Shown: positions 1 through 8,331 of the stretch, piece after piece
How positions within the stretch are numbered: position 1 is the stretch's first letter
Layout: each line of letters begins with the position of its first letter
Source of the DNA: Elusimicrobiota bacterium
GTDB lineage: Bacteria; CG03; SLGR01; PWQF01
DNA: 8,331 bases
Assembly (NCBI GenBank): GCA_003557485.1
Contig: PWOI01000093.1
Span: 1 to 8,331 of the forward strand
Direction of reading: 5' to 3'
Program-made: the position numbers and the translations under genes
The notes under the pieces: model-generated
Told to the model about the DNA's origin: nothing
What the model saw: only the letters and a program-made list of their open reading frames with translations
Database searches by the model: none

Positions 1-1
1 A

Positions 2-70
2 ATTATCGACGAGAATCTACCCCTTTTTTTTATCAAAGAACACGCCTGGGGTGAAAACACCGAAAATTGA
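2..70 (+). CDS. possible C-terminal end of a gene entering from the left edge
   Basis: The second forward frame is open from the window edge to a TGA at 68-70. It reads like a real protein tail, ending in residues FFIKEHAWGENTEN. It ends shortly before a non-coding stretch that leads to the promoter of the next gene, which is where a preceding co-oriented gene would end. Only 22 residues are visible, so no family can be assigned. A transposase tail is one possibility, because this kind of short aromatic/acidic ending followed by AT-rich non-coding DNA is common there, but nothing seen proves it. An overlapping reverse-strand frame (33-218) is less protein-like. Confidence 0.3.
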   Translation: MIDENLPLFFIKEHAWGENTEN

Positions 71-183
71 CACTACCCAAAACCTTTCTCGTCAATCCAG
101 ATTGGGGCAAAAGTCTTTTTTTATGCCTTCTATCTATTGTCGATGGTTCTTTACAGCGAAAATGCCTCAAATAGTATAGCTCC
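71..183. other. non-coding stretch upstream of the MFS operon promoter
   Basis: No convincing gene, RNA or terminator was found here. An 8-base inverted pair, GACGAGAA at 8-15 and TTCTCGTC at 86-93, spans the end of the preceding frame. A short palindrome, CAATC-CA-GATTG, lies at 93-104. Neither is followed by the geometry of an intrinsic terminator. The inverted pair could be a remnant of a mobile-element end, but that is inference only. Confidence 0.3.
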
Positions 184-212
184 TTGAAAATAAAAAAAAA
201 AGAAACTATAAT
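184..212 (+). promoter_or_regulatory. sigma70-type promoter of the MFS-mscS operon
   Basis: A TTGAAA box at 184-189 and a perfect TATAAT at 207-212 are separated by exactly 17 bases. The spacer is an A-rich tract. The predicted start is A219, giving a leader of about 48 bases before the ATG at 267. It is the only good promoter seen ahead of the two-gene operon. Confidence 0.75.
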
Positions 213-240
213 CCGCATACAGACGGTTTCAGTATAAGGG

Positions 241-258
241 CAGGTTCAATTTTACCTG
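241..258 (+). promoter_or_regulatory. small dyad in the leader of the MFS gene
   Basis: CAGGT (241-245) and ACCTG (254-258) form an inverted repeat with an 8-base loop, ending 8 bases before the ATG. As RNA it could form a weak hairpin next to the ribosome-binding region. As DNA it could be a small operator downstream of the predicted start site. It shares the half-site CAGGTT with the larger dyad near 6517-6560. Function is unknown. Confidence 0.25.
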
Positions 259-266
259 AAAGAACA

Positions 267-1796
267 ATGAATGACAACTCCACTGCAAAAGCACTAAGGC
301 TTTCAATAATAGACGGCTCCTTTTCTGCCATAATGGCTTCCCTGTGCGGGGGAATATTTCTTATGGGTTTTATTTTAAAAGTCCTTGATGCCGATGCGGG
401 AAAAGTAGGAATAATCGCTTCACTGCCAATGTTCGCTAACATCATACAGCTTTTCGGTTCATATATAATAGAAAAAACCGGAAAAAGCAAGCCGCTATGC
501 GTAATATCGGTAGCCCTAAGCAGGGCCCTATGGATTCTTATAGTTCTCCTTCCTTTCAGAATATTTGCACCTGTTGCAGATTACAGGATCTGGATTGTTG
601 TTTCCGTAATAGGACTCTCAAGCCTTTTTGCTTCACTTGCTGGGGTGGGTTGGACTTCCTGGATGAGCGAGATTGTTCCTGCAGATATAAGAGGAACCTA
701 TTTCGGCAAAAGGAATATGATAACTTCTTTTTTCGGAATGGTTTTTGTCCTGCTTGGAGGCTGGTTTATCAATTACTGGGAGTTAAGCAGGCCTGACAAC
801 CTTCAGGCAGGTTTCGTCATTGTATTTGCCGCGGGTATAGCTGCGGGACTCTCTTCCGTTATTTTCCTGCGCTCGGTTCCTTCAGCTGCCGCGCCCAACA
901 TAAACAAACAGGAAAAGGTTTCCTTATCCAGGTTTTTGCTGCCGCTTCGCGACAGCAATTTCATAAAGCTCATATTATACGTCTCTGTTTGGATCTTTGC
1001 CATAAATCTGGCAGCCCCTTTTTACGGTGTATATATGATAAATATTTTAAAGATTGATTTTTCAACTCTGACAATTTTCGGAACCGCGGCCACTGTTGCG
1101 ACTCTTTTAATGATGAAAATTTGGGGGCCTATTACAGACATGCTGGGAAACAAACCCGTGGTCATACTTTCAAGCATTGTTCTGGCTGCCGTTCCCTTTC
1201 TGTGGCTGACGGCAGTTCCCGGTATCTATTACATCCCGGTTATGGCGGCACATATACTTACAGGCGCTTTTATGGCAGGCGCCGGGCTTTCGCAGTTCAA
1301 CATACTTATAAAACTTTCCCCCCAGGCGGGACGCTCGGTCTTTCTTGCTCTCTATGCAGCTGTTACGGGATTTACAGGAGCAATAGCCCCTCTCGCCGGA
1401 GGAACCCTTACCGGCATATTGGGAAATTTTTCTCCCGTTATACTGGGCCGGACTCTTACGGAACTTCACCTGCTATTTGTGATATCCTCTATTCTTATTC
1501 TACTGTCTGTGGTTTTTGCTTCACGAATAAATGAAGAAGGAAGCGCAACGCCTATGGCGGTGGTTCTGCAGCTTAAAAACGATCTTAATCTGCAGTCCGG
1601 CATATCGGGAGCGGCCGATTTTGTTCTCGTCCGGGCCGCAAAAGGAGAGAATATTTTAAAGAAACTGGACAAAAAAACTGACGATCTGGCAGAGAAGTCA
1701 GAAAAGACAATAAGAAAAGCACTTGAAAAAGGGGAAAAATTTATAGAAAAACCGGCAAGAAAAATAAAAGATTTTCTTGATGACGATAAAAAATAA
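267..1796 (+). CDS. major facilitator superfamily (MFS) permease with charged C-terminal tail
   Basis: This encodes a 509-residue integral inner-membrane transporter; the substrate cannot be told from sequence. About twelve hydrophobic segments are visible, roughly at residues 12-40, 46-68, 77-97, 108-128, 150-170, 180-201, 232-258, 266-286, 297-315, 321-345, 357-383 and 400-418, with a long polar loop (202-231) between the two six-helix halves. The opening LRLSIIDGSFSAI, the GVGWTSWMSEIVPADIRG stretch (126-143) and the TDMLGNK loop (290-296, MFS motif A-like) fit an uncharacterised MFS group found in many environmental bacteria. Residues about 420-509 form an unusual lysine- and glutamate-rich tail, probably helical and cytoplasmic. 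The start is ATG 267: the frame is open back to 180 but has no other ATG, GTG or TTG, and the Shine-Dalgarno is weak. It is the first gene of an operon; the next gene begins 14 bases after its stop. Confidence 0.85.
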   Translation: MNDNSTAKALRLSIIDGSFSAIMASLCGGIFLMGFILKVLDADAGKVGIIASLPMFANIIQLFGSYIIEKTGKSKPLCVISVALSRALWILIVLLPFRIFAPVADYRIWIVVSVIGLSSLFASLAGVGWTSWMSEIVPADIRGTYFGKRNMITSFFGMVFVLLGGWFINYWELSRPDNLQAGFVIVFAAGIAAGLSSVIFLRSVPSAAAPNINKQEKVSLSRFLLPLRDSNFIKLILYVSVWIFAINLAAPFYGVYMINILKIDFSTLTIFGTAATVATLLMMKIWGPITDMLGNKPVVILSSIVLAAVPFLWLTAVPGIYYIPVMAAHILTGAFMAGAGLSQFNILIKLSPQAGRSVFLALYAAVTGFTGAIAPLAGGTLTGILGNFSPVILGRTLTELHLLFVISSILILLSVVFASRINEEGSATPMAVVLQLKNDLNLQSGISGAADFVLVRAAKGENILKKLDKKTDDLAEKSEKTIRKALEKGEKFIEKPARKIKDFLDDDKK

Positions 1797-1810
1797 AGGA
1801 GAAGAAAAAA

Positions 1811-2644
1811 ATGAACGCATTTATTGAAGTATTCACCCATCTTGCTGTAACCTCATTCACTCAAGTTTCGGAACTTCTTACAACCTTCGCGCCCAAGGTT
1901 CTTTTTGCACTCGGGATAATTGCTTTTGGGTGGCTTTTCGCGATTATTATAAGAAAACTTGTATCAAAAGTTCTGAAAATGCTTGGCTTTGACGTTTTTG
2001 CGGAAAAGTTCGGACTGAAAAAAATTCTTGAAAGGGGAGGAATAACAAGGACCCCTTCATCTATAGCAGGGCTGTTTTTCTACTGGCTAATTCTAATTAA
2101 CACCTTCATAATGGCTTCAGATGTAATGAATATAGGGTTTACATTAGACCTTATGCGCCAGACAGTAATATACCTCCCAAAAATAGCCGTTTTCATAATG
2201 ATTCTTTCCATTGGTATTGCAATAGGAGGATTTATTGACAGGCTGGTATACAGGGCGGCCCTCCTTGCAAAGATCCCTTTCAGCTTCTTTGCGGGAAAAG
2301 CGGCAGGCTATATGACAGTGGCTCTTTCATTTGTTCTTGCCCTGGAGTATATTGGAGTTTCAAGATCTGTTTCGGCTCAGCTCTCCGTAATAATTATAGG
2401 GTTAATTCCTCTTCTTCTTTTTATAATGCTTTTCACCGGAGGAAGAGACGCAATTGCCAATATAACCGCTTCCAGGCTTATACACCGGGAATATAAAGCG
2501 GGAGATGTAGTAACAGCTGAACTTTTCTCGGGAGAAATAACAAAGATTGATCTTTTTGCTGTGACAATCAGAGATAAGAATGAAGAGCTTATAATACCCA
2601 CTTCAACATTTATACAGCTTATTATAAAAAGAAAAAGGGGCTGA
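1811..2644 (+). CDS. MscS-like small-conductance mechanosensitive channel family protein, short form
   Basis: The product is a 277-residue membrane protein. Hydrophobic segments lie near residues 26-48, 84-106, 117-140, 164-184 and 190-210. The first, with GWLFAIIIRKLVSKVLKMLG, resembles the conserved TM helix found in MscS-related proteins such as CmpX-type channels. After the last membrane segment, residues 211-270 (GGRDAIANI, KAGDVVTAE, GEITKIDLFAVTIRDKNEELIIPTS) match the MscS beta domain, whose usual form has a GDxV turn and an IPNxxF ending. The protein stops right after it and lacks the C-terminal alpha/beta vestibule of E. coli MscS. It would be expected to act in turgor or osmotic relief in the inner membrane, but gating by tension is inferred. 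AAGGAG at 1796-1801 is the only canonical Shine-Dalgarno in the window, 9 bases before the ATG, so translation is probably coupled to the upstream permease. Confidence 0.75.
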   Translation: MNAFIEVFTHLAVTSFTQVSELLTTFAPKVLFALGIIAFGWLFAIIIRKLVSKVLKMLGFDVFAEKFGLKKILERGGITRTPSSIAGLFFYWLILINTFIMASDVMNIGFTLDLMRQTVIYLPKIAVFIMILSIGIAIGGFIDRLVYRAALLAKIPFSFFAGKAAGYMTVALSFVLALEYIGVSRSVSAQLSVIIIGLIPLLLFIMLFTGGRDAIANITASRLIHREYKAGDVVTAELFSGEITKIDLFAVTIRDKNEELIIPTSTFIQLIIKRKRG

Positions 2645-2655
2645 CAGAAAGCTTC

Positions 2656-4395
2656 TTATAGTACGGAAGAATCGCTTCTTGAAGCTGCTTCCCGCAGCAG
2701 GTTTTTAAGAAAAGTTTCTTTACTGACTGTTCCCGCTTCGCCTTCACCAAGTTTTCTTACAGAAAGGGTCCCTTCGGCAACCTCCCTGTCACCGGCTACG
2801 GCCATATACGGAACAAGTTTTTTTCTTGAAAGCCAGATTTTTTTTCCGAGTTTCTCTTCCTTTAGATTGACCTCTACACGAAGGCCCTCTTTAATCATCT
2901 GCTCTTTCAGCCGAATGCAGTAATCAAAATGCTTCTCGCCTATGGGTATTATTTCAGCCTGGACAGGCGCCAGCCAGAGCGGAAAACGCCCCCCGTAATG
3001 CTCTGTCAGAACTGCAAAAAATCTCTCCAGCGACCCGAAAACTGCCCTGTGAATCATAACGGGCTGTTTTCTGGATCCGTCCGGAGCGGAATATTCCAGT
3101 TTAAATTTTTCCGGCACGTTAAAATCAACCTGTATGGTTGAACACTGCCACAAGCGCTGAAGACTGTCTTTTATTTTTATATCTATCTTAGGTCCGTAAA
3201 AAACACCCTCTCCCGGATCAATTTTATAATCCAGGGAAATTTTCTCGAGCCCTTTTTTAAGGGCATCTTGGGCCCTCTCCCAGTTTTCATCCGTTCCCAC
3301 ATGTTTTTCCGGGCGCGTGCTTAAAAATACTTCGTATTTGCTGAAACCGAAAGTACTTAGCATATCCACGGTAAATCTCAATATTGATTCTATCTCTCCG
3401 TCAAGCTGACAGGGACGGCAGAATATATGGGCATCATCCTGGGTAAAACCCCTGACTCTCATCAGGCCGTGAAGCACCCCGGGTTTCTCATACCTGTAAA
3501 CTGTACCCATCTCTGCCCATCGTATAGGAAATTCCCTGTAAGAATGAACGGTGTTTTTATATACAATTATGTGGCCGGGACAGTTCATAGGTTTTAAAAT
3601 ATATTCTTCCCCTTGCTCGATATCCATAGCAGGGAACATATTCTCCCTGTAGAAATCAAGATGTCCCGAAGTCTTCCATAAATTGCTCCTGGCTATATGA
3701 GGAATATTTACCAGTTCGTAGCCGTTCTGAAGGTGACGTTCTATCCAGAAATTCTCTATTACCCGTCTGACAGCGGACCCTTTTCCGTGCCAGTATACAA
3801 GGCCGGCTCCCGCCTCCTGACCGTGTATACTGAAAAGATCAAGTTCTTTTCCGAGCTTGCGGTGATCCCGCTCTTTGGCCAGTTCTATTCTTTTCAGGTG
3901 GTCATCAAGTTCTTCTTCGGAAAAAAAAGCGGTTCCGTATATCCTTGTCAACATAGGATTTGTCTCGCTTCCCTTCCAGTAAGCTCCCGCTATGTGGGTA
4001 AGTTTGAAATTTTTTATATCGGAGGTTTTCTCCATATGGGGCCCCCGGCAAAGGTCCCTGAATTCTCCGCTGGTGTAAACGCTGACCTCTTCCCCTTCAG
4101 GGATCTCATTTATAAGCTGCAGCTTGTAAGGCTGGTCCTTGAACTCTTTTAATGCATCTTCTTTTTTCAGAACTTCTTTTTTAAACGGCAAGTTCCCGGC
4201 AGATATTTTTTCCATTTCACCGGCAATTCTCTTGAGGTCTTCTTCGGAAATCTTTTCCGGTAATTCAAAGTCATAGTAGAAGCCGTCTTCCGTTGACGGA
4301 CCTATACCAAGCTTGACATTGTCAAACAGACGCATTACCGCATGTGCCATTACATGAGAGGCAGAATGCCTTAATTTTTCAAGTTCAGTGTTCAT
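2656..4395 (-). CDS. thrS: threonyl-tRNA synthetase lacking the N-terminal TGS domain
   Basis: A class II aminoacyl-tRNA synthetase that charges tRNA-Thr in the cytoplasm. From ATG 4395 it has 579 residues, against about 640 for the E. coli enzyme. It begins directly at the editing (N2) domain, with H10-x3-H14 and C116-x3-H120 as the deacylation residues, so the TGS (N1) domain is missing. The catalytic core has the zinc ligands C272 (MNCPGH), H323 (DDAHIFC) and H449 (MIHRA), motif 2 arginines in LMRVRGFTQ (311-319) and motif 3 in GSLERFF (454-460). The anticodon-binding domain runs from about 478 to 570. All key residues are present. A TTG start at 4407 would add four residues but is less likely than the ATG, and neither has a clear Shine-Dalgarno. 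It lies 18 bases after the tRNA-Val gene and is probably transcribed with the tRNAs. infC-rpmI-rplT, often next to thrS, are not here. Confidence 0.95.
   Translation of the reverse strand: MNTELEKLRHSASHVMAHAVMRLFDNVKLGIGPSTEDGFYYDFELPEKISEEDLKRIAGEMEKISAGNLPFKKEVLKKEDALKEFKDQPYKLQLINEIPEGEEVSVYTSGEFRDLCRGPHMEKTSDIKNFKLTHIAGAYWKGSETNPMLTRIYGTAFFSEEELDDHLKRIELAKERDHRKLGKELDLFSIHGQEAGAGLVYWHGKGSAVRRVIENFWIERHLQNGYELVNIPHIARSNLWKTSGHLDFYRENMFPAMDIEQGEEYILKPMNCPGHIIVYKNTVHSYREFPIRWAEMGTVYRYEKPGVLHGLMRVRGFTQDDAHIFCRPCQLDGEIESILRFTVDMLSTFGFSKYEVFLSTRPEKHVGTDENWERAQDALKKGLEKISLDYKIDPGEGVFYGPKIDIKIKDSLQRLWQCSTIQVDFNVPEKFKLEYSAPDGSRKQPVMIHRAVFGSLERFFAVLTEHYGGRFPLWLAPVQAEIIPIGEKHFDYCIRLKEQMIKEGLRVEVNLKEEKLGKKIWLSRKKLVPYMAVAGDREVAEGTLSVRKLGEGEAGTVSKETFLKNLLREAASRSDSSVL
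2684..2706 (+). terminator. weak candidate terminator for the MFS-mscS operon, inside the thrS 3' end
   Basis: GCTGC (2684-2688) and GCAGC (2694-2698) form a 5-bp stem with a 5-base loop. AGG and then five T residues follow (2702-2706). The stem is short and the T-run is displaced by three bases, so this is only a candidate. No better terminator was found for either convergent transcript. Confidence 0.25.
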
Positions 4396-4413
4396 TAGTT
4401 TTAACAACAGGTA

Positions 4414-4490
4414 TGGTGGGCGGTACTGGACTCGAACCAGTGACTCCTTGCGTGTCGAGCAAGTACTCTAGCCAGCTGAGCTAACCGCCC
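4414..4490 (-). tRNA. tRNA-Val(GAC) with C33 in the anticodon loop
   Basis: A full cloverleaf is visible on the reverse strand: acceptor GGGCGGT/ACCGCCC (7 perfect pairs), D stem GCTC/GAGT, anticodon stem CTTGC/GCAAG (5 perfect pairs), T arm ACTGG-TTCGAGT-CCAGT, discriminator A73 and an encoded CCA (4414-4416). The seven-base anticodon loop is TCGACAC, placing GAC at 34-36 and A at 37. GAC and A73 indicate valine. Position 33 is C where nearly all elongator tRNAs have U. Because both loop-closing stems are perfect, the loop cannot be re-registered to avoid this. An Asp reading would need GTC and G73, neither of which is seen. It is the last of three tRNAs before thrS. Confidence 0.88.
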
Positions 4491-4524
4491 ACAAAATGCT
4501 TTTTCAAAATCTGATTGTTTTTGC

Positions 4525-4602
4525 TGGAGGCGCGGGCCGGATTTGAACCGGCGAAATAACGGTTTTGCAAACCGCCCCCTTAAGCCACTTGGGTACCGCG
4601 CC
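4525..4602 (-). tRNA. tRNA-Cys(GCA)
   Basis: Reverse-strand cloverleaf with acceptor GGCGCGG/CCGCGCC, anticodon stem GCGGT/ACCGT and loop TTGCAAA, giving anticodon GCA. The T arm is GCCGG-TTCAAAT-CCGGC. The discriminator is U73, a hallmark identity base of cysteine tRNAs, and CCA is encoded (4525-4527). The E. coli tRNA-Cys has the same acceptor start GGCGCG and the same end GCGCCTCCA. It sits 13 bases after tRNA-Leu and 34 bases before tRNA-Val, in one apparent polycistronic unit. Confidence 0.95.
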
Positions 4603-4615
4603 GAAAATTAAATCC

Positions 4616-4701
4616 TGGTGCCGAGGGCGGGATTTGAACCCGCACGGGGGTCGCCCATACGGTCCTTAACCGTACGCGTCTGCCAGTTCCGCCACCTCGG
4701 C
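4616..4701 (-). tRNA. tRNA-Leu(AAG), class II tRNA with long variable arm
   Basis: Reverse-strand tRNA with acceptor GCCGAGG/CCTCGGC, a long variable arm of about 14 bases with a GGG/CCC stem, T arm GCGGG-TTCAAAT-CCCGC, discriminator A73 and encoded CCA (4616-4618). The anticodon stem TACGG/CCGTA encloses loop TTAAGGA, so U33 is followed by anticodon AAG and G37. G37 fits codons that begin with C, which argues against a shifted UAA reading. Bacterial leucine tRNAs for CUY normally carry GAG; A34 is rare and implies inosine formation or direct A34 decoding of CUU. It lies directly after secG, as leuU (tRNA-Leu GAG) does in E. coli. Confidence 0.93.
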
Positions 4702-4734
4702 TTTTATCAGTTTTATGCTATATATTATTAAATA

Positions 4735-5112
4735 TCAGGGTACCTGCAACGGGGGCAGTTCGTCAGCGGGCGCTTCTTCTTCAAAAGGCGTTACATCGTC
4801 AAATTCATCAAAAGGAGGCCTCTCTTCACGTGGATGTCCGTGAGGAACCGGATCCCGAACTCTATCCATTAACGAAGTCTCAGTGATAGTCCCCATAGCT
4901 AAAAACAGCGATGTGGCAAAAAATATAACAGCAAGCGTAGTCGTAGCTTTTTTCAAATACTCCCCTCCGCTTGGCGTTGACAAAATATCGTCCATGCCAC
5001 TGCCTCCGCCGAACATACCTGACAGACCGCCACCGTGCCCGTGCTGCAGAAGAATAATCAGCACAAGCAAAAGTGCTGCAGTTATATGTATAATAGTAAT
5101 TAGTGTCAGCAT
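4735..5112 (-). CDS. secG: preprotein translocase subunit SecG
   Basis: A 125-residue small subunit of the SecYEG channel, which supports SecA-driven protein export across the inner membrane. Two membrane segments are seen (about 3-22 and 57-75), joined by the family's glycine-rich loop, LLQHGHGGGLSGMFGGG (21-37), and the short helix region GEYLKKATTTLAV. The C-terminal extension (about 80-125) is acidic and proline-rich, a variable tail common in longer SecG proteins. ATG 5112 is chosen because the hydrophobic segment starts there. No Shine-Dalgarno precedes it, and the predicted transcription start is only three bases upstream. tRNA-Leu begins 33 bases after its stop with no terminator between, so the two are probably co-transcribed. 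Confidence 0.93.
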   Translation of the reverse strand: MLTLITIIHITAALLLVLIILLQHGHGGGLSGMFGGGSGMDDILSTPSGGEYLKKATTTLAVIFFATSLFLAMGTITETSLMDRVRDPVPHGHPREERPPFDEFDDVTPFEEEAPADELPPLQVP

Positions 5113-5121
5113 ATCAACGCT

Positions 5122-5150
5122 TTTATATCAAATAAGTTTTTTTTTGTCAA
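5122..5150 (-). promoter_or_regulatory. near-consensus sigma70 promoter giving a leaderless secG mRNA
   Basis: On the reverse strand a perfect TTGACA (5150-5145) is followed by a 17-base, A-rich spacer and TATAAA (5127-5122). The +1 is predicted at G5115, only three bases before the secG ATG at 5112. No ribosome-binding site could fit in that leader, which agrees with the absence of any Shine-Dalgarno. The promoter probably also drives the three tRNAs and thrS. Confidence 0.8.
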
Positions 5151-5164
5151 TTTACTGTAATTTC

Positions 5165-6382
5165 TCAGCGGCCGACTGCAACTATAAGAACGGCCCTGAA
5201 AACCTGGTGAGGTATCAGAGACAGGTTAAATGTTGTAAGAGTAAGATATTCGTTTTTTCCAAGAGTAATTGTTTCTATTTCCGCGCCAGATGAAGTCAGA
5301 TTATCTATCTCCCTGTCCAGTATTTCAAGCGGAACATCTTTTACTCCTATCGTTTGCAATACGGAAATAAATTTCTCCCCTATTTTTTCAGGAACCCGGT
5401 TCGCGTTTCTTCTGAAAAAATTATTGGTATATATTATCCTTTTATTTTCATCCGCAACCGCAACGCATAAAGGCACATTATCAAGAAGCCTTTTTGCAAA
5501 ACTGAACGCCTTGCTTTCCCCTTCTGTAAAAAGTTCCATATTAATAATATTGAGTCTGCTTATTTTTGCAACAATATCATTGCGGCTGTTAAAATCAACA
5601 ATCTTAAAATTTGATATTCTTCTTATTTCAAGAGCTTTTACAGCATTTTGCAGTATCTCGGGCAGGCGTGAAAGGTCTTTCGGTTTCATTATGTAGTCGT
5701 CGGCACCCAGGCGCATTGCTTCAACAGCTGTTTCTTCATCACCTTTTTCAGCCATAACAACCACGCTTATATTATCAAAAAACAGCTTCAGTTTTTTAAG
5801 CAGCTCAAGGCCCTGCTCAACCCCGTTGTCAAAATCTATTATGACTATATCCGTCATGCACCTGCTGAGTATCCTGAAACAGTCTAAATAACTATCGCAG
5901 AATTCTATATTCCAGAATCCTGGCGTAAGCAGGTTTTCAATCTGAGACTTCAAATCTTTATTTCCTTCAACCAGAAGGATATTGCAAATTTCGGTGGTAT
6001 CCCTGAGCTGTTTAAACTTACTGCTGGCCCTTTTAACTGATTTTTCTATTACAGTTTTTTCAAAAGGCTTCTTTATATAATCAACAGCTCCGGACTGCAA
6101 AGCTCTTACTGCTTTTTCGTATTCCCCGTATCCGGTTATTGCTATAGGCTGGGCTATGGGACGCATATCTTTGAATATCCGTATAAGTTTATTGCCCCGA
6201 ACGTCAGAAAAGTGATAATCTATAATTGCTATACCGGGAAGGTCTTTTTTGAACTTGGTAAGAGCCGTCGCGGCATCACGGACGGGAATGGGAGACATAT
6301 CAATTCCTTTAATTATTTTAGTAAGGATTTTTACTGTATCCCGGTCGTTATCTGCTAGCAATACTTTTTTGTGCTGGTTCAT
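5165..6382 (-). CDS. two-receiver response regulator with C-terminal PAS-like domain (REC-REC-PAS)
   Basis: A 405-residue soluble signalling protein. Receiver 1 (about 5-122) is complete: acidic D11 and D13, phospho-acceptor D55 (AIIDYH), T83 (PIAITGYG) and K105 (DYIKKPF). Receiver 2 (about 133-250) keeps D183 (VIIDFD) and K233 (DYIMKP), but its acidic pair is E139-G140 (LLVEGNKD) and the conserved Thr/Ser is A211 (VVVMAEKG), so it may phosphorylate poorly. After a linker, residues about 296-405 resemble a PAS fold (LLDNVPLCVAVADENKRIIYTNNFF). There is no DNA-binding, kinase, GGDEF/EAL or other output domain, so it may act as a phosphate sink, relay or scaffold. Start ATG 6382 is chosen over an in-frame ATG at 6442, because the added 20 codons would be the riboswitch terminator. 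The gene follows a GEMM riboswitch, so cyclic dinucleotide control is likely. Confidence 0.85.
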   Translation of the reverse strand: MNQHKKVLLADNDRDTVKILTKIIKGIDMSPIPVRDAATALTKFKKDLPGIAIIDYHFSDVRGNKLIRIFKDMRPIAQPIAITGYGEYEKAVRALQSGAVDYIKKPFEKTVIEKSVKRASSKFKQLRDTTEICNILLVEGNKDLKSQIENLLTPGFWNIEFCDSYLDCFRILSRCMTDIVIIDFDNGVEQGLELLKKLKLFFDNISVVVMAEKGDEETAVEAMRLGADDYIMKPKDLSRLPEILQNAVKALEIRRISNFKIVDFNSRNDIVAKISRLNIINMELFTEGESKAFSFAKRLLDNVPLCVAVADENKRIIYTNNFFRRNANRVPEKIGEKFISVLQTIGVKDVPLEILDREIDNLTSSGAEIETITLGKNEYLTLTTFNLSLIPHQVFRAVLIVAVGR

Positions 6383-6396
6383 TCTTTTACAGCGGC

Positions 6397-6432
6397 AAAA
6401 AAAAAGGCCGCCAGGAAAAATATCCGGCAGCC
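6397..6432 (-). terminator. intrinsic terminator acting as riboswitch expression platform
   Basis: On the reverse strand GGCTGCC (6432-6426) pairs with GGCGGCC (6412-6406) through one G-U pair. An inner GGA/TCC adds three pairs around a six-base loop, with one bulged T at 6413. Nine T residues follow at once (6405-6397). It ends 14 bases before the ATG of the regulator gene, so it must control entry into that gene. Its 5' arm is also the 3' end of the aptamer, so the two structures exclude each other. It may also stop read-through from the helicase gene. Confidence 0.88.
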
Positions 6433-6507
6433 CGGCCGGCATAGGAAAAACTTCCCTTAGCCCCGGCAGCTTTGTGTCTCCGCCTTTTGGCGGATTTACC
6501 TTTATCG
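6426..6507 (-). promoter_or_regulatory. GEMM-I (cyclic di-GMP-I class) riboswitch aptamer
   Basis: Read on the reverse strand, the order of conserved GEMM elements is present. GGTAAA (6500-6495) is followed by a perfect hairpin TCCGCC-AAAA-GGCGGA (6494-6479). Next come GACACAAAGC (6478-6469), then a second arm with GGCTAAG and TATGCC, which resembles the 11-nt tetraloop receptor (CCUAAG/UAUGG), and last GCCGGGCTGCC. The base helix can form between GGTA (6500-6497) and TGCC (6429-6426). TGCC is also the 5' arm of the following terminator, so ligand binding should prevent termination and turn the gene on. The family is known to bind c-di-GMP, and a variant binds 3',3'-cGAMP. By my alignment the specificity base matching Vc2 G20 is G, favouring c-di-GMP, but this is a hand alignment. 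The tetraloop is AAAA rather than the usual GAAA. Confidence 0.87.
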
Positions 6508-6516
6508 CAAAATTAC

Positions 6517-6560
6517 ATCAGGTTAACTTTATATTCTTAATTATAATACAAAAACCTGAT
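6517..6560. repeat. 8-bp inverted repeat bracketing the riboswitch promoter
   Basis: ATCAGGTT (6517-6524) and AACCTGAT (6553-6560) are perfect reverse complements with 28 bases between them. One half-site falls in the -35/-10 spacer (about -27 to -20) and the other at about +10 to +17, so together they enclose the -10 box and start site. This is the layout of an operator bound by a dimer or paired dimers. There is no T-run, so it is not an intrinsic terminator. Confidence 0.4.
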
Positions 6561-6568
6561 ATTTTCCA
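6540..6568 (-). promoter_or_regulatory. sigma70-type promoter of the riboswitch-regulator unit
   Basis: A perfect TATAAT (6545-6540) lies 17 bases after TGGAAA (6568-6563, 4 of 6 matches to TTGACA). Transcription should start near A6534, giving a leader of about 150 bases that contains the whole aptamer and terminator. The -35 box begins just after the helicase stop codon (6573-6571), so the regulator has its own promoter. Confidence 0.65.
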
Positions 6569-6570
6569 CT

Positions 6571-8331
6571 TCACCCGCATTTTCCAAAGAAATTACAGTT
6601 TTTGCAGTGTTCTCCTCTTACAGCCTGAAACTTGCCGGCTATTATTCCTGAAATAAGGCTTTTTATTTTTATCCGGGCATGTTTCATGGTTGGAACGGGT
6701 TTTATCTCTCCGCTTTTTAAAAAATATATCTCAGCCCGGTCCGGTTTCATTCCAAATACTTCTTCAAGCGCAGTAGTGTATATTCCGGTCTGAATACCGT
6801 ACTTTGCAGTATCCTGCGTAAGGGAAGCCTTATAATCTATCAGAACAGGCTTTTCTTCCGGGCCGTCAAGACGGTCAAAGGTCCCGTTGATATAGGTGTC
6901 GTCAATTTTAAGGACAAATGGCTTTTCAGTAAAAATCACTCTTTCCCCGGACGGGAGCATTTGGGCCTCCATTATTTTTTCAACGGTCTCCCTTATCTGA
7001 TCAGCATAATACTTATTATAATCGCTGCTTTCTATTCCGGAAGATAATATAAGAGAGGCTGTCTTTTCAATCATTTTCTGGACTGTGTCAAGCCCACCCA
7101 GCACATAATACTCTTCAAGCATGCGGTGCAGAGCCGATCCGAAAAGAGATGGTGAAAAAACCCGGCCGGGAGAAGGCGGCCTTATATTTAGCCGGTAAGA
7201 ATAATAGTACTGCCTGGGGCATGTGCCGTAGGTTTGAAGCTGGGTAACGCTGAACTCCGAAGGCGCCTGCCTTGTTCTATAAAAACCGGGTACGCCCAGA
7301 GTCCCGGAAATCTTAAGGAAATCTTCCATAGACTCAGGTGAAAGGGACTTTTTAGAAGGCATATCTTCTGAGACAGCCGGCGTAAATTCCTTAACCAGCG
7401 CAGCGTATTTATTAAGTTTCTTTTTCAGTAAGTACTTTCCTTCTTCATTTTCTTCAAGGAAATACTCCATAAACATTGAAATTTTTCCATTTTTATTCCT
7501 GTGCCCGGAAATCACAAGATTTTTTATCGCCCTGGTCATTGCAACATAAAGAAGCCTCTGTTCTTCATTCTTATGAGAGGCGCCGAGACTCTTCTCAACT
7601 TTCTCCCTGTACTCAGAACCCTTGGTTGTATCCTTGATAATAAGCCCTGTATCCGGATTGAAATGAAAGTCCGCAGGCTGCATCCTCCCGGGAAAATTAG
7701 ACCTTGCCAGATTAGGTATAATCACTGCCGGAAACTGAAGCCCCTTTGCCTGATGGATTGACATAAGCTGCACAACTCCCTCCACCCTGGGCCTTGCCTC
7801 GGCTTCGGCAATTGAAGCTTCCTCCAGCTGACGCAGGTATTCAGTAAAGTCTGCAAGAGTTGAAAATATATTCCGTGTCTGAAAATTTCTTGCCTGCCTC
7901 ACAAACTTCTCGATATTTGACATCTGACGGGATTGCCTGCCTCCTGGCGCTGAAACCGCACGGTAAATTATTCCGCTTTCATATATGAGCCGCTGAATAA
8001 GTTCCACCAGTGTTAGTTCGTTTTTCATTTTTCTGGCTTTTTCGATAAAATTCCTCAACATCACTGTTTTTTCATCCGATGCGGAAAGAACGGTTTCATA
8101 TATAGATCCTTCTCTCTTTTTTTCCGAAGAGAGCGAGGCAATTTCAGAATCTGCGAATGAAAAAGATTCAAGACGCATTACTCTTACAAGAGCTTTATCG
8201 TTATATGGATTGTCCGCGCAAGAAAGTAAAGATATTAAATCTTTTATTTCGGGCTGGCTGTAAAATCCTGTACCCCCAACCGTTACTGTCTTTACCCCGG
8301 CATTCCTGAGAGCATCCTCATACATCCGGCA
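6571..8331 (-). CDS. UvrD/AddA-type helicase-nuclease, C-terminal part (gene runs off the right edge)
   Basis: The frame is open to the right edge, so the N-terminus with the ATP-binding Walker motifs lies outside. Residue numbers count from the first visible Met (8325). Residues 1-45 (AGVKTVTVGGTGFYSQPEIKDLISLL) match helicase domain 2 of AddA/UvrD proteins. Motif V is MSIHQAKGLQFPAVI (188-202) and motif VI is LLYVAMTRA (258-266). The C-terminal third is a RecB-family PD-(D/E)XK nuclease: GSALH (396-400), GTFDRLD (481-487), IDYK (496-499) and QTGIY (512-516), all intact. C369 with C574, C577 and C583 form the cysteine pattern of an Fe-S cluster locking the nuclease, as in AddB and Cas4. It probably unwinds and trims DNA ends in double-strand break repair. 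AddA is the best guess, but AddA itself usually lacks the cluster, so a related single-chain helicase-nuclease is possible. The partner gene is not in view. Confidence 0.85.
   Translation of the reverse strand, partial: CRMYEDALRNAGVKTVTVGGTGFYSQPEIKDLISLLSCADNPYNDKALVRVMRLESFSFADSEIASLSSEKKREGSIYETVLSASDEKTVMLRNFIEKARKMKNELTLVELIQRLIYESGIIYRAVSAPGGRQSRQMSNIEKFVRQARNFQTRNIFSTLADFTEYLRQLEEASIAEAEARPRVEGVVQLMSIHQAKGLQFPAVIIPNLARSNFPGRMQPADFHFNPDTGLIIKDTTKGSEYREKVEKSLGASHKNEEQRLLYVAMTRAIKNLVISGHRNKNGKISMFMEYFLEENEEGKYLLKKKLNKYAALVKEFTPAVSEDMPSKKSLSPESMEDFLKISGTLGVPGFYRTRQAPSEFSVTQLQTYGTCPRQYYYSYRLNIRPPSPGRVFSPSLFGSALHRMLEEYYVLGGLDTVQKMIEKTASLILSSGIESSDYNKYYADQIRETVEKIMEAQMLPSGERVIFTEKPFVLKIDDTYINGTFDRLDGPEEKPVLIDYKASLTQDTAKYGIQTGIYTTALEEVFGMKPDRAEIYFLKSGEIKPVPTMKHARIKIKSLISGIIAGKFQAVRGEHCKNCNFFGKCG

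Follow-up and report, generated by a model that had tools for sequence, protein, structure and literature searches.

The locus analysed here raises the question of whether the leader of a two-receiver gene acts as a cyclic dinucleotide riboswitch and, if so, which ligand it recognises and in which direction it controls the gene. The window is a stretch of 8,331 nucleotides from Elusimicrobiota bacterium (GCA_003557485.1, contig PWOI01000093.1, positions 1 to 8,331), and all features discussed below lie on its minus strand. A first-pass annotation of the letters had proposed a GEMM-I element with a mutually exclusive terminator in front of this gene.

Locus and controlled gene

The gap holding the proposed element was correctly given as 188 bases. 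On its upstream side lies a UvrD-type helicase/PD-(D/E)XK nuclease gene, whose open reading frame ends at 6571, and on its downstream side the start codon ATG at 6382. The promoter and the genes downstream are as follows.

6540..6568, minus strand: sigma-70-type promoter, -35 TGGAAA (6568-6563), 17-nt spacer, -10 TATAAT (6545-6540), 10 of 12 matches
5165..6382, minus strand: controlled gene, 405 aa, two receiver (REC) domains (PF00072 twice) and a weakly PAS-like C-terminal region
4735..5112, minus strand: secG, the next gene downstream (PF03840, E 1.8e-18)

The product of the controlled gene had been described as a REC-REC-PAS protein. Both receiver domains were recovered (PF00072 twice, E 1.1e-31), whereas the C-terminal similarity to PAS domains is weak (PAS_8 with E 0.078 here, PAS_4 with E 0.0013 in the best relative). 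Its nearest named relative, from an Elusimicrobia MAG, is 82% identical. The gene secG possibly shares a transcript with the REC-REC gene. No clear Shine-Dalgarno sequence was found before the REC-REC start codon (6382-6396 of the window, minus strand) or in the orthologue. An in-frame ATG at 6442 inside the aptamer was considered as start codon and rejected, because in the orthologue the frame opened by this ATG runs into a stop codon in the region of the U tract and differs from that of the gene. Further downstream, three tRNA genes are clustered between secG and thrS (4417-4701, minus strand), and a three-tRNA cluster also occurs near thrS in L034, L035, L036 and L062.

Family and structure of the aptamer

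The search that had been proposed as a check, with the Rfam covariance model of c-di-GMP-I (GEMM-I, RF01051), gave a full-length match at 6510-6423 (77.9 bits, E 1.8e-14, model positions 1-87 of 87), far above the gathering score of 35 bits. The family assignment is thereby supported, and the conserved elements lie on the minus strand at about the positions given. The same match was recovered when the whole genome was searched with RF01051, together with two weaker GEMM-I matches elsewhere in the genome.

6423..6510, minus strand: c-di-GMP-I aptamer (RF01051 covariance match)
6500, minus strand: G corresponding to Vc2 position 20, ligand-contacting (RF01051 alignment)
6427, minus strand: C corresponding to Vc2 position 92, ligand-contacting and taken up in the terminator stem (RF01051 alignment and terminator pairs)

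According to the RF01051 alignment, the residues of a c-di-GMP-type pocket are present, with G6500, A6473 and C6427 corresponding to G20, A47 and C92 in the Vc2 numbering. At the base of P3, 6433-6429 pair with 6465 and 6468-6471, including U6429 with A6471. The P1 pairs, mapped from the structure line of RF03167 and from Vc2, are C6426 and G6425 with G6506 and C6507, so that P1 is short, comprising these two pairs and a weak extension. The P3 receptor CUAAG/CUAUG is present in the aptamer. The family carries GAAA or a different GNRA loop as P2 tetraloop, but in this genus it reads AAAA, both at 6485-6488 (minus strand) and at the equivalent position of L011; the replacement of the conserved GNRA (GAAA) could make docking to the P3 receptor less stable. 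Compared with the Vc2 aptamer of Vibrio cholerae, the window's aptamer shares G20, A47 and C92, the P2/P3 architecture and the CUAAG...CUAUG receptor, but differs in the tetraloop (AAAA instead of GAAA) and at positions 22-45, which are U-A instead of C-G.

Terminator and its overlap with the aptamer

The aptamer is followed by a strong intrinsic terminator whose pairs were obtained from the energy model, while the native pairs were taken from the covariance alignment.

6423..6433, minus strand: 5' arm of the terminator, equal to the 3' strand of the P3 base, the pocket C and P1 (pair lists of native aptamer and terminator)
6405..6416, minus strand: 3' arm of the terminator with a bulged U at 6413 (computed stem)
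6397..6405, minus strand: nine-U tail of the terminator (sequence)

The hairpin had been described as having 10 bp and nine U residues. The U9 tract (6405-6397) stands, but the stem formed by 6433-6423 and 6416-6405 has 11 bp, including two G-U pairs, with one bulged U. The hairpin escaped a simple terminator scan, which accepts only gap-free stems with a loop of 3-8. When the U tract was kept in place and the remainder was shuffled, 59 among 10,000 permutations gave a helix of at least 8 bp that abuts the U tract and pairs with the aptamer 3' strand; the helix actually present has 10 gap-free bp.

Since the terminator draws its 5' arm from the 3' strands of P1 and of the P3 base and from the C that contacts the ligand, aptamer and terminator are mutually exclusive, as had been proposed, and the same arrangement is found in the congeneric orthologue. 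The first-pass annotation explained this exclusivity by TGCC (6429-6426), pairing either with GGTA of the aptamer base or within the terminator arm. The overlap with the terminator arm holds, but GGUA is not the native partner: in the covariance alignment its G6499 and U6498 pair with C6474 and A6475, and the partners of UGCC are P3, the ligand and P1. With this pairing replaced, the exclusivity rests on P3, pocket and P1. In the computation, the terminator fold (-45.4) exceeds the aptamer fold without ligand (-35.4) in stability by about 10 kcal/mol, ligand and tertiary contacts not being counted in these values.

Promoter, aptamer, terminator and gene are all kept in the congeneric orthologue L062 (the same locus as G001/L011), the protein of which is 82% identical. 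Its promoter, TGGACA-17-TATAAT, is situated at the same place, its aptamer scores 70.8 bits, and its terminator reads CGGGCUGCCGAA...UUUGGCAGCCCG-U8. The aptamer dictates the sequence of the 5' arm, and the 3' arm and the loop have diverged in L062, yet every pair is still standard. One change is two-sided (G6424-C6415 to A-U); the others are G-U to G-C, U-G to U-A and G-C to G-U. This covariation, from two sequences only, is the best comparative evidence for the predicted function of the terminator.

Ligand and switching logic

The initial assignment to the class of cyclic dinucleotides can be narrowed to c-di-GMP as predicted ligand. An A at position 20 marks the cGAMP-type GEMM-Ib aptamers, while G6500 occupies this position in the RF01051 alignment. 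It has been shown that a GEMM-I aptamer becomes a cGAMP sensor through the exchange G20A (PMC11352751), and that the Hypr GGDEF enzymes carry Ser at their specificity residue (PMC6456294). At this position all five full-length GGDEF domains of the genome have Asp in a GHxxGD motif, i.e. the canonical GTP type. Hence, no Hypr-type GGDEF exists among the five full-length domains of this 86.6% complete genome, in which three weaker GGDEF matches gave no clear specificity residue; a Hypr enzyme could be absent from the recovered sequence. The G20 together with the five Asp-type GGDEF domains points to c-di-GMP rather than cGAMP. The same ON switch tuned to 3',3'-cGAMP would be in line with the existence of a cGAMP subclass within GEMM-I and with the fact that pilM, the best-studied mutually exclusive ON switch, senses cGAMP; given the G at position 20 and the diguanylate cyclase Asp retained in all five full-length GGDEF domains, we regard it as very unlikely.

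Regarding the direction of control, the c-di-GMP-I riboswitch is, with high probability, an ON switch acting via transcription termination, as the first-pass annotation had predicted and as the computed strand overlap and the orthologue support. RNA polymerase would initiate near 6533. As long as no ligand is bound, 6433-6423, the 3' strand of the aptamer, would leave it and pair with 6416-6405, and transcription would halt in U9. Bound c-di-GMP would hold P1, pocket and P3 base together and thereby block the terminator, so that the REC-REC gene, perhaps together with secG, would be transcribed. The same logic has been published for the pilM riboswitch of Geobacter metallireducens (GEMM-Ib), where aptamer and terminator are mutually exclusive and the ligand prevents termination (PMC9262584). 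Both have the same aptamer class, a terminator made from an aptamer strand, exclusive folds and a transcriptional ON output, here predicted; they differ in the ligand, which is cGAMP for pilM and predicted to be c-di-GMP for the window's G20 aptamer, as well as in the controlled gene and the phylum. As reported for pilM, the decision is probably kinetic, because only about 20 nt separate the completion of P1 from that of the terminator, which has the energetic advantage of about 10 kcal/mol.

Two other readings assign a different role to the same elements. In Cd1 of Clostridioides difficile, aptamer and terminator can form side by side, and their competitor is a separate antiterminator, which makes an OFF switch (PMC9262584). 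Cd1 resembles the window's riboswitch in aptamer class and transcriptional output, whereas the terminator of the latter competes directly with the aptamer. An OFF switch might be considered here, with an unseen antiterminator through which the aptamer in its bound state would promote termination, because other GEMM-I loci of this genome and its relatives (L002, L003, L019, L031, L150, L152) contain a segment that can pair with the 5' strand of the aptamer, as expected of OFF switches. However, neither the window's locus nor its congener has such a strand, and the terminator takes one of its arms from the aptamer, which renders this logic even less likely than a response to cGAMP. OFF control via an antisense to the aptamer 5' strand was also tried directly at this locus and rejected; the longest match is 6 bp, a length reached by 295 of 300 shuffles. 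The AAAA tetraloop in place of GNRA and the weak P1 extension could indicate that the aptamer has decayed or does not switch and that the terminator behind it is a constitutive attenuator, but the 77.9 bits extend across the full model, the substitutions relative to the congener mostly preserve pairing, and the pocket positions are identical, hence this appears to be the least probable of all the readings. The first-pass observation is thus right, and the preferred interpretation, the c-di-GMP-dependent ON switch, is an ordinary one in that it combines a known class with a known switching logic.

Distribution and other GEMM-I platforms in Elusimicrobiota

The REC-REC gene has orthologues in three further genera of the order. 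As in the window, they lie close to thrS and, in the cases where it was seen, to secG. At the syntenic orthologues in G007 and G005, Rfam finds no riboswitch in the complete upstream gaps, which with 86-87 nt are too short for one; in G003 the contig starts 59 nt upstream of the open reading frame. It follows that at this locus the riboswitch either arose in the window's genus or disappeared outside it.

Among GEMM-I loci of this genome and its Elusimicrobiota relatives, six (L002, L003, L019, L031, L150, L152) contain 10-15 nt, G-U pairs allowed, that are complementary to the aptamer 5' strand CUGAUAAAGGCAA, and this antisense strand sits within the terminator arm or loop. L002 and L003 are loci of the window's own genome (C84, C91). 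Five of the six, all except L003, are situated upstream of genes for PorV-like outer-membrane proteins, named by resemblance. These six loci are predicted to be OFF switches, the opposite of the window's riboswitch. In L004, L006, L008, L009 and L151 the 3' half of the aptamer (GCCGGGYURCCGAA) is clearly doubled, and in L005, L014 and L021 a good distal copy accompanies a degenerate proximal one. The distal copy is the terminator 5' arm in L004, L008, L009, L014, L021 and L151. In four of these (L004, L008, L009, L151) its pairing with the P3 5' strand is at least as good as that of the proximal copy (-11.5 versus -9.1 or -4.1 kcal/mol), which suggests that two 3' halves may compete for one 5' half. 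Taken with some reservation, it might be possible that GEMM-I aptamers in Elusimicrobiota are wired to three expression platforms, namely direct ON control as in the window, antisense control with a predicted OFF output, and strand exchange with a duplicated 3' half.

Biological meaning

In this uncultured Elusimicrobia lineage, a predicted c-di-GMP switch precedes a two-receiver protein without recognised output domain, which suggests that a phosphotransfer component is under second-messenger control. The riboswitch occurs in one genus and is missing at the corresponding syntenic position in related families, a small case of regulatory gain or loss. The example in the window leaves the knowledge of GEMM riboswitches unchanged, and the two other GEMM-I platforms in relatives from the phylum may be more interesting. 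If true, the strand-exchange platform of these relatives would represent a new variant of GEMM-I control.
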